Shown here in pieces: positions 19,200 through 22,000 of a stretch of 64,000 nt of DNA. The translations under genes were made by a program, and so were the position numbers. The stretch covers positions 248,001 to 312,000 of the forward strand of contig NZ_JAVDDX010000001.1 in NCBI RefSeq assembly GCF_030848575.1, written 5' to 3'. Position 1 is the first letter of the stretch. Each line of letters starts with the position of its first letter. The notes under the pieces are model-generated. The model saw only the letters and a program-made list of their open reading frames with translations, made no database searches and had not been told where the DNA came from. Source of the stretch: Haloarcula sp. H-GB4 (GTDB lineage Archaea > Halobacteriota > Halobacteria > Halobacteriales > Haloarculaceae).

Positions 19200-19787
19200 A
19201 TGCTCGTCACGCTTGAAGGACTGGACGGGAGCGGCAAGACGACCGTGTGGGAACGGCTCCGAAGCGACGACACAGTCCCCAACGAGGCTGTGTTCACGCG
19301 CGAACCGACCGATAGCTGGTACGGAGATGCCGTCCAGCGTTCCATCGACGACGACGACGCGGACTCGCTGGCCGAACTGTTCCTCTATACGGCGGACCAC
19401 GCCGCGCATCTCTCGAACACGGTTCGACCGGCACTCAGAGAGAACCAGCTCGTCGTCTCCGACCGCTACAGCGACTCGCGGTACGCCTACCAGGGTGCGA
19501 CACTCGAAGCGAGTGAGACGTTCGACGACCCGCTGTCGTATGTCCGGGAGGTCCACGCTCCATGGACCCGGCCGCCGGACCGGACCGTGTACCTCGACCT
19601 TGATCCCGAAACCGCTGCACAGCGAAGCGGCGCGACGAACAAGTTTGAGACCGCTGACTATCTCACAACGGTTCGTGACAACTACGAGCGACTCATCGAA
19701 GCCGACCCAGATCGGTTCGTTCGGGTTGATGCGACCGCCAACCCGGACACCGTGTACGAACGGGTCAAAGCAGCGATTCTGGACTAA
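19200..19787 (+). CDS. tmk: Thymidylate kinase
   Basis: A protein of 195 residues. It makes dTDP from dTMP and ATP. The P-loop is [10 protein letters not shown] (about residues 6-15), followed by Thr-Arg-Glu-Pro-Thr and the [12 protein letters not shown] segment that binds the nucleotide. The ATG at 19200 starts right at the first beta strand. It overlaps the stop of the following minus-strand gene by four bases. Confidence 0.92.
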
Positions 19788-20104
19788 TCTATCGACGCCG
19801 GTACGTCGACTTCATCGGGGGCCGGCATCCAGAAGTAATCGAAGGTGACGCCAATTGCCAAGGGAATGAGGACAGTCACAAGCATGACGGCAGTCGTGGA
19901 TCCGAGGTTCGCCCCAAGTCTGAACACGCCACTCAACACCAACACGAGAACAACCATGACCACCGGACAGAGAAGCAACGAGTAGACGATACTTCCCCAT
20001 CGCGTGTGTAAGCGGACGCGGAAAAAGCGCGTCATGAGCGCCGTCACAGCACTGTTGACCAGCACGATGACGAGCAGGCCGATAATACCGGCGACACTGA
20101 CCAT
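19784..20104 (-). CDS. Small three-helix membrane protein
   Basis: A protein of 106 residues with three hydrophobic segments: about residues 1-24, 35-60 and 68-92. The tail is short, acidic and Pro-rich. I do not recognise a characterised family; similar small haloarchaeal membrane proteins are annotated only as hypothetical. The ATG at 20104 is chosen because the upstream frame is Ser/Arg-rich and non-protein-like. It converges with tmk. Confidence 0.65.
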
Positions 20105-20156
20105 ATTCGTCGTAGGGTGGCAAGTCCCTTTGCCGTGTCGGAACAACGCGGGGAAC

Positions 20157-20387
20157 TCACTCCAAACAGATGTACGTGCGCGTGTCGGCGACGCCGTCGA
20201 GGTCTCGGACGTGGCCCGAGACCGACTGCATGATGTCATACACTTCCGTACCCGTCGCTTCGCCGATGATGTCGTACTGCCCGGCGACGATGTGTGCCTC
20301 GGTGATGCCCTCGGCATCGCGAACTGCCGCAAGGAGTTCTTCGGATTTGCCGGCAGCGGTCTTGATCATAATGAACGCGCTAACCAT
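20157..20387 (-). CDS. Stand-alone Lrp/AsnC ligand-binding (RAM) domain protein
   Basis: A protein of 76 residues that is only the C-terminal RAM domain of the Lrp/AsnC family, without the DNA-binding helix-turn-helix: a beta-alpha-beta-beta-alpha-beta pattern with Ile-Thr-Glu-Ala-His-Ile-Val-Ala-Gly-Gln-Tyr-Asp in the middle. Such domains form ring-like oligomers and often bind amino acids between subunits. It is divergent from trkA, and a close paralogue follows trkA at 21217. That arrangement suggests a link with potassium uptake control. Confidence 0.85.
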   Translation of the reverse strand: MVSAFIMIKTAAGKSEELLAAVRDAEGITEAHIVAGQYDIIGEATGTEVYDIMQSVSGHVRDLDGVADTRTYICLE

Positions 20388-20432
20388 ATTGTGGTGTGTC
20401 GTGTCATAGCACGAAAAAGCTTCCGTCAAGAG

Positions 20433-20451
20433 ACAACAATGTCTTTGTTGT
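20433..20451. promoter_or_regulatory. Palindrome in RAM-trkA divergent region
   Basis: ACAACAAtgtctTTGTTGT: seven-base perfect arms with a five-base centre, 46 bases upstream of the RAM gene start and 77 upstream of the trkA start. Size and symmetry suit a dimeric regulator. Confidence 0.4.
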
Positions 20452-20472
20452 TTGCTATCGTGGTCAAGGCGT

Positions 20473-20488
20473 CCGGTGGTTCCACCGG
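20473..20488. promoter_or_regulatory. Perfect inverted repeat upstream of trkA promoter
   Basis: CCGGTGG and CCACCGG around two bases, immediately upstream of a TATA-like ACTTTTATTC (20495-20504) that lies about 25-33 bases before the trkA ATG. A third short repeat, CCCC-ATA-GGGG (20512-20522), spans the region just before the start codon. Confidence 0.4.
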
Positions 20489-20527
20489 GTGGGTACTTTT
20501 ATTCACCCCCGCCCCATAGGGGTGTGT

Positions 20528-21214
20528 ATGCGATTCGTTATCGTGGGTGCAGGCCGTGTCGGATTGCGGACGGCTCGCGTCCTGCAAGAGAGTGGCCACG
20601 AAGTTGTCCTCATCGAGCGCGATGAGAACGCAGTCGAGCGCGCGCGAACGGCTGGCTTCGAGGTGATTGCGGGCGACGGCGCTATCGAGGAGACACTCGG
20701 CAACGCCGACCTCGAAGCCGCCGACGCGCTCGGCGCGCTCACCGGCGACCTGAACGACAACTTCGTTGCCTGTATGATTGCCAAGGAACACGGCTGTCGA
20801 ACCGTTATGCGCATCGACGAGGACTACCGCGAGGAAATCTACCGACGCTACGCCTCCGACGTTGACGAGATTATCTACCCCGAACGGCTGGGCGCTATCG
20901 CCGCCAAGAACGCGTTGCTGGGCGGGAACATCCGCGCAGTCGCCGATATCGCACAGAACCTCCAGCTCGTGGAGTTTACCATCCAGCGGCAATCGCCGAT
21001 GGAGGGGTACACACTGTCGGAACTGGAGCTTCCGTCGGATTCCCGGCTGATGGCGCACGGGAAAGGTGAGGACCCACTCGCTATTCCCGACCCGGACGAA
21101 ACGCTGGAAGCCGGTGACCGAGTCGTGATACTGGCCGACTTTGGGACGCTCTCCGATGTGCGTAGTATTGTTGTCGGTGAATCAGATCCCGCGACCGCGC
21201 TTGGAGGTGCCTGA
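20528..21214 (+). CDS. trkA: TrkA-type potassium uptake regulator
   Basis: A protein of 228 residues: an N-terminal RCK/TrkA-N Rossmann domain (Gly-Ala-Gly-Arg-Val-Gly at residues 7-12, acidic residue after the second strand, so NAD(H) binding is likely) and a TrkA-C domain from about residue 140. TrkA is the cytoplasmic ring that gates TrkH potassium channels, central to salt-in osmoadaptation. No trkH is in the window. The ATG at 20528 is placed by a TATA-like element 25-33 bases upstream. A RAM-domain gene starts two bases after its stop. Confidence 0.9.
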   Translation: MRFVIVGAGRVGLRTARVLQESGHEVVLIERDENAVERARTAGFEVIAGDGAIEETLGNADLEAADALGALTGDLNDNFVACMIAKEHGCRTVMRIDEDYREEIYRRYASDVDEIIYPERLGAIAAKNALLGGNIRAVADIAQNLQLVEFTIQRQSPMEGYTLSELELPSDSRLMAHGKGEDPLAIPDPDETLEAGDRVVILADFGTLSDVRSIVVGESDPATALGGA

Positions 21215-21216
21215 AC

Positions 21217-21447
21217 ATGGTCATTGCCTACGTGATGGTCAAAGCCCACACTGGTGACGCGGACCGTCTGAAGACTGATATCGAAGCTGTCGACGGCGTT
21301 GTCGAGGCCCACATCGTTGCTGGTGACGTCGACTTCATCGCAAAAGTGAACGTGGAGACGCCCGCCGAAGTCAAAGACGTCGCAGCGACACATATTCAGG
21401 AAATCCAGGGCGTCGAAACGACACAGACCTATATCGCGATGGACTGA
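21217..21447 (+). CDS. Stand-alone Lrp/AsnC ligand-binding (RAM) domain protein, second copy
   Basis: A protein of 76 residues, the same length and fold as the RAM protein at 20157, with the matching Val-Glu-Ala-His-Ile-Val-Ala-Gly-Asp-Val-Asp stretch and a Thr-Gln/Arg-Thr-Tyr-Ile ending. No DNA-binding domain. It begins two bases after trkA, so it is almost certainly in its operon. The two RAM proteins could form mixed rings and sense an amino acid, with TrkA as the target; this is inference. Confidence 0.87.
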   Translation: MVIAYVMVKAHTGDADRLKTDIEAVDGVVEAHIVAGDVDFIAKVNVETPAEVKDVAATHIQEIQGVETTQTYIAMD

Positions 21448-21487: not shown

Positions 21488-22000
21488 CTACAGCGGTGTC
21501 CCGCCGCGGGACCCCTCGCTCCCGCCGGTACTCGCCGAATTGAGCAGGTCAGCTACGACGCCGACGTAGTCGTAGCCGGGAATGACGCCCTCCACGTACG
21601 TCCCCTCGACGTACTCGACGAAGGTTTTGGCGACGTCGGCGGCCTGCCGTTCGCCACCCATTGTGTATTCGAACGTGACCACGACCTGCTCGCCGTCCTC
21701 GACGACGCTGTAATCGTCCAGTTCGACGGCGGTTCGGGTCGCTTTCGGCGCGTCCTCCAGCCGTCGCTCCAGCGTCTCAAGCCAGCCGTCAACGACTGCG
21801 TCCCCGACCTCGTCGCTTGTCGCGGCCTGTAGCGACGGCGCTTTGACCGTCACCTCGTAGTTCGTCCGCCACTCTTCGCCCTCAGACGCGGTCACGCGGC
21901 CATCGAAGTTTGTCGTCTCGACAGCGTAGCTATCCCCGGCCGAGACGAGCGCATCGTGTTGGTCGAACGCTTCGGCAACATCATCTGGCATATCAGTCAT
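21488..22000 (-). CDS. DUF5813-like haloarchaeal protein
   Basis: A protein of 170 residues, strongly acidic, with a mixed alpha-beta pattern and a central Gly-Trp-Leu-Glu-Thr-Leu-Glu-Arg-Arg-Leu-Glu helix followed by Tyr-Val-Glu-Gly-Thr-Tyr-Val-Glu-Gly-Val-Ile-Pro-Gly-Tyr-Asp-Tyr. This matches my memory of the haloarchaeal DUF5813 family, whose function is unknown. The C terminus is Ser/Gly-rich. Starts at 22000 or 21991 are both possible. The gene converges with the RAM gene. Confidence 0.65.
   Translation of the reverse strand: MTDMPDDVAEAFDQHDALVSAGDSYAVETTNFDGRVTASEGEEWRTNYEVTVKAPSLQAATSDEVGDAVVDGWLETLERRLEDAPKATRTAVELDDYSVVEDGEQVVVTFEYTMGGERQAADVAKTFVEYVEGTYVEGVIPGYDYVGVVADLLNSASTGGSEGSRGGTPL

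Follow-up and report, generated by a model that had tools for sequence, protein, structure and literature searches.

The window, a 64,000-nucleotide stretch of the genome of Haloarcula sp. H-GB4, contains a trkA gene flanked by two genes for stand-alone RAM (Lrp/AsnC ligand-binding) proteins, designated here as RAM1 and RAM2 (Table 1). The initial annotation placed two 76-residue RAM proteins around trkA, and the coordinates, strands and lengths are borne out, as are the divergent orientation of RAM1 and the start of RAM2 two bases (AC) past the trkA stop codon. RAM1, trkA and RAM2 are genuine genes. The near-identical core motif also ascribed to the two RAM proteins is seen in EAHIVAG-x-x-D, but the similarity does not extend to the proteins as a whole, which are only 32% identical.

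Table 1. Features of the RAM1–trkA–RAM2 module and its surroundings (window coordinates)
Feature	Position	Strand	Remarks
107-aa membrane-type protein	19784-20107	-	No Pfam match; beside module; widely syntenic in haloarchaea
RAM1, stand-alone RAM, 76 aa	20157-20387	-	ATG at 20387; divergent from trkA
Putative divergent promoter region	20388-20527	.	Between RAM1 and trkA
Dyad CGTGTCATAGCACG	about 20400-20413		In 20388-20527 intergenic region
A-rich box	about 20413-20419	opposite strand	About 26-32 nt before RAM1 ATG
Dyad CCGGTGGTTCCACCGG	about 20473-20488		In 20388-20527 intergenic region
TTATT	20499		29 nt before trkA ATG
trkA, single-RCK TrkA/KtrA-type regulator, 228 aa	20528-21214	+	PF02254 and PF02080; stop TGA
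GGAGGTG, Shine-Dalgarno-like	21203-21209	+	In trkA 3' end, 7 nt before RAM2 ATG; sequence reading
RAM2, stand-alone RAM, 76 aa	21217-21447	+	PF01037; co-operonic with trkA
DUF5813 protein	21491-22000	-	Beside module; widely syntenic in haloarchaea

Pfam analysis has shown that PF01037 covers RAM1 (2.2e-10) and RAM2 (2.5e-14) from end to end with no other domain, and that the N-terminal HTH domain, the mark of an Lrp/AsnC transcription regulator, is absent from both. Each is thus a stand-alone RAM protein in the sense of a single PF01037 domain spanning the protein without a DNA-binding domain. The trkA product consists of a TrkA_N Rossmann domain (PF02254, 2.5e-26) and a TrkA_C domain (PF02080, 4.8e-12), as do the TrkA/KtrA RCK regulators, and its best solved relatives are KtrA (PDB code: 7zp9, 3.8e-19) and TrkA (PDB code: 4j9u, 7.8e-19). 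Among solved chains, RAM1 comes closest in sequence to P. horikoshii DM1 (2e1a/2z4p, 1.2e-7). The AlphaFold model of RAM2 (pLDDT 94) has the beta-alpha-beta-beta-alpha-beta fold of RAM domains, and its top PDB matches (TM 0.84-0.89) are all RAM proteins, namely TTHA0845, PHS023/DM1 and STS042, followed by full-length Lrp proteins. The same fold is predicted for RAM1 from its sequence. Of the RAM residues, only G36, D39, T71 and Y72 are near or fully invariant.

The 4.19-Mb genome carries seven PF01037 genes, among which only RAM1 and RAM2 are stand-alone; the other five are longer (142-176 aa) and presumably encode full-length Lrp proteins. The genome also has more than 20 TrkA_N genes, and both stand-alone RAM genes stand beside the same one; these numbers, together with the class-wide arrangement described below, rule out a chance adjacency. 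A second, different Lrp/TrkA_N neighbourhood is found on C2 of the same genome at about 27.2-29.3 kb (L179, 5166-7345), where an apparent 2-oxoacid:ferredoxin oxidoreductase pair precedes a full-length Lrp-type gene; the next gene, of 571 aa, matches TrkA_N weakly.

Comparison of 54 non-redundant divergent intergenic regions has revealed TTATT or TTATG at 29-31 nt upstream of the trkA start codon in 42 of them, and an A-rich element (AAAR) before RAM1 that peaks at 25-27 nt. A TGTGRTAC-type motif is present near RAM1 in 15 of the 54, compared with 0.4 in shuffled sequences. Such motifs, which are akin to the dyads of the window, recur before RAM1 in other genera, and in some genera also beside the trkA promoter. 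As judged from these sequence elements, the intergenic region may hold two back-to-back, probably leaderless promoters with a shared operator.

Conservation of the module in haloarchaea

A TrkA orthologue is present in 91 of 116 haloarchaeal genomes searched, and the flanks of the gene were examined in 90 of them. RAM2 lies directly 3' of trkA at 88 of the 90 loci with a gap of -1 to +5 bp, often overlapping the trkA stop codon, so that 88 of the 91 orthologue-bearing genomes have RAM2 within 5 bp of this stop; the RAM2 protein is 76 aa long in 79 of the 88. RAM1 is upstream of trkA at 79 of the 90 loci, in divergent orientation at 71 and codirectional at 8, nearly all of the latter belonging to one genus. 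Of the remaining 11 genomes, seven carry RAM1 at another locus, two (G002, G066) lack it, and two (G073, G044) lack both RAM genes while keeping TrkA. Overall, RAM1 is present in 86 of the 91 TrkA-bearing genomes. The 91st of these, G014, has no RAM genes; a reading of G014 as TrkA-less was rejected because a diverged orthologue, with 74% identity to that of a congener versus 45% to the paralogue, occupies the site. RAM2 is conserved to the same degree as TrkA.

When RAM2, whose nearest named relatives are from Haloarcula species, was used to search a second, named collection, 31 haloarchaeal loci were retrieved. The order RAM1(-) TrkA(+) RAM2(+) is found at 27 of them, in genera including Haloarcula, Halorientalis, Halapricum, Halorhabdus, Halovenus, Halorussus, Halohasta and Halobaculum. 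Three more loci have TrkA and RAM2 (one of them, on a short contig, with RAM1 in a different overlap order), and the last is a contig fragment; two further matches are bacterial RAM proteins without TrkA. The initial annotation had proposed a neighbourhood search across haloarchaea, with a lack of conserved synteny counting against a link; the order is in fact widely kept. RAM1 and RAM2 form two orthologue groups across haloarchaea with a 100%-supported split, and the pair thus predates the diversification of the genomes sampled. In some haloarchaea, a third stand-alone RAM gene lies apart from trkA (L198, L200, L201, L202).

Joint loss and separation of the RAM and trkA genes

Since the whole neighbourhood of tmk, the 107-aa membrane protein, an epimerase, cetZ and DUF5813 is also widely conserved, synteny by itself is weak evidence for a link. 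More informative is that in several genomes (e.g. L088, L095, L102 and L113) RAM1, trkA and RAM2 have been inverted together with respect to tmk and DUF5813. Eight genomes (G006, G009, G042, G067, G074, G080, G093 and G097) have an empty site, from which TrkA, RAM1 and RAM2 are all gone while tmk and DUF5813 are intact, these two genes being adjacent or having no more than a few small or usual genes between them. In G067, the distance from the E1 gene to DUF5813 is 6 bp, where congeners have the module. Outside the module, no TrkA gene was found in 15 stretches around stand-alone RAM genes and at five third RAM copies in haloarchaea. RAM genes of other archaea of the phylum likewise have no TrkA beside them, none of the sampled non-haloarchaeal stand-alone RAM genes having one within about 4 kb, and the TrkA paralogue of the Haloarcula genome has no RAM neighbour. 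The RAM–TrkA link is therefore specific.

Among 114 scorable genomes (G034, with broken contigs, and G021, with ambiguous RAM genes, were omitted), TrkA and RAM2 occur together in 88, are jointly missing from 20 and are split in 6, giving a phi of 0.84 that ignores phylogeny, with many of the absences falling in one genus. RAM1 and RAM2 are both present in 89, both absent from 23 and split in 2. A published per-family table gives RAM-only Lrp proteins as about 17-21% in most families, compared with 4.8% for Halorubraceae and 2.7% for Halococcaceae (PMC8229911), and these low values fit a lineage-wise loss.

The two halves of the module part in a few genomes. TrkA is found without RAM genes in two independent lineages, G073/G044 and G014, and the RAM pair is found without this TrkA in two lineages, G001/G007 and G099. 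In G007 (L164, 6104-6679) and G001 (L165), RAM1 and RAM2 stand back to back in the syntenic position between tmk and DUF5813, trkA having been lost, and no transporter gene is seen at this site. In G099 (L163, 4961-6824), a gene for a CBS-CBS-MgtE magnesium transporter lies between RAM1 and RAM2 in the place of trkA, near tmk, with a gap of about 130 bp to RAM2. Neither the RAM proteins nor TrkA is strictly dependent on the other half, and these break cases indicate that the RAM1–RAM2 bond is stricter than the RAM–TrkA bond. Only two TrkA positions (N76 and Y100) are lost in both RAM-less lineages, which is near the chance expectation.

Functional interpretation of the module

The operon of trkA and RAM2, the usual place of RAM1 beside it and the mostly joint keeping or loss of all three suggest that these genes very likely work together, and their functional coupling can be proposed with good confidence. 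The best explanation is that they form a haloarchaea-specific signalling module. A physical action of a metabolite-binding RAM1/RAM2 assembly on the RCK ring of TrkA, tuning cation uptake, is a plausible mechanism to which slightly less than even confidence is given. RAM2 would be made right after TrkA from one mRNA and RAM1 from a divergent transcript; the two proteins would assemble through RAM dimers into rings and bind a small metabolite at the dimer-dimer interfaces; and the assembly would contact the TrkA RCK ring or the C-terminal tail of TrkA, thereby tuning the transport of a cation, most likely K+, to the metabolic state of the cell. By analogy with their relatives, RAM1 and RAM2 may be expected to oligomerise and to bind amino acids; that the assembly touches TrkA, that its rings mix RAM1 with RAM2 and that the channel is TrkH are further steps that we infer. 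The initial annotation's reading of the locus as an amino-acid-responsive input into potassium uptake is supported in part.

In a mirror-tree analysis controlled for flanking genes, TrkA does not covary in rate with RAM1 or RAM2 beyond the background (partial r of 0.07 and 0.16), which lends no support to contact. No TrkA fusion with RAM1 or RAM2 is seen. In some genomes, trkA and RAM2 abut in frame, and the AlphaFold model of the read-through TrkA–RAM2 single chain (pTM 0.51) has low confidence at the joint and shows no confident docking, and so speaks neither for nor against contact; the TrkA C-terminal tail ahead of the stop codon is short, variable and rich in Gly and Ala. All 116 genomes have TrkH, with or without the module, and so TrkH content does not correlate with the module. 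Because TrkH occurs in every genome of the class, TrkH as the target is neither supported nor refuted.

RAM1 and RAM2 may instead act mainly in transcription, forming hetero-oligomers with full-length HTH-containing Lrp proteins to alter their DNA binding, with TrkA being a co-regulated output rather than a partner. DM1, the nearest solved relative by sequence, forms hetero-octamers with FL11 in vitro (PMC2995911), and the five longer PF01037 genes of the genome, the survival of RAM pairs after the loss of TrkA in some genomes and the conserved dyad-like motifs in the common RAM1/trkA intergenic region are in agreement with such a role. However, it leaves unexplained why RAM2 is hardly ever even a few bases away from trkA and why the three genes are lost jointly while longer Lrp genes stay, and it is regarded as somewhat unlikely.

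The retention of both RAM genes without trkA in G001/G007 and the CBS-CBS-MgtE gene between them in G099 raise the idea of a wider clientele. In its strict form, with RAM1/RAM2 as an obligate hetero-oligomeric sensor for gated cation-transport regulators, RCK-type TrkA being the rule and CBS-MgtE the exception, this idea is unlikely. A looser form makes the RAM pair a sensor that serves cation-transport regulators in general, usually TrkA but also others such as CBS-gated MgtE. It is likewise regarded as improbable: no transporter accompanies the RAM pair in G001/G007, and the MgtE gene may be an incidental insertion because it is found in a single genome and about 130 bp from RAM2. Passive synteny of three unrelated genes in a slowly rearranging region, although consistent with the wide synteny of the surrounding genes and the absence of rate covariation, is very improbable because the module holds together where its flanks have been inverted or exchanged, is packed more closely than they are (within 5 bp at nearly all loci) and disappears as a unit from sites that keep their flanks.

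Related systems and biological meaning

The stand-alone RAM proteins DM1 of P. horikoshii (2e1a/2z4p/2cvi), STS042 of S. tokodaii (2zbc) and TTHA0845 of T. thermophilus (2djw) have the same length, RAM fold and GxxD core as RAM1 and RAM2 and likewise lack an HTH domain, whereas here two paralogues are paired around trkA. The single-RCK TrkA/KtrA regulators of TrkH/KtrB channels have the same TrkA_N and TrkA_C domains, and the protein described here is of KtrA length; in contrast to them, trkA is an orphan with small RAM genes as neighbours, no channel gene, TrkH included, being recognised in the examined module flanks of about 1.5-3 kb. Haloarchaeal Lrp proteins fused to TrkA_C exist, as described for Trh2 of H. 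salinarum and two proteins of Hfx. mediterranei (PMC4236453, PMC8229911). Like the module, these fusions bring Lrp-type sensing and an RCK_C sensor into one system, but each is one DNA-binding polypeptide, whereas the module consists of separate proteins with a whole RCK and no HTH domain. Two RAM-only Lrp proteins of Hfx. mediterranei, WP_004059678.1 and WP_004059676.1, are listed with no link to trkA noted in the available part of the source (PMC8229911); their accessions, two apart, would fit a RAM–TrkA–RAM locus. No published description of the paired RAM/trkA arrangement was found in the open-licence literature. The parts are known; judging from this literature, their paired, operonic and co-lost arrangement is new.

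Structures of stand-alone RAM proteins have been solved, and their physiological significance was unclear according to a 2010 review (PMC2995911). The tie to an RCK regulator seen across the class, in an operon and with mostly joint loss, provides a concrete and testable candidate client for two such proteins. If RAM1 and RAM2 do form an obligate sensor, it would feed a metabolite signal into ion homeostasis in trans, in a way not described before. In salt-in archaea, acidic proteins and metabolites balance a very high potassium content, and a metabolite input to potassium uptake would therefore help explain how ions and metabolism are matched in these organisms.
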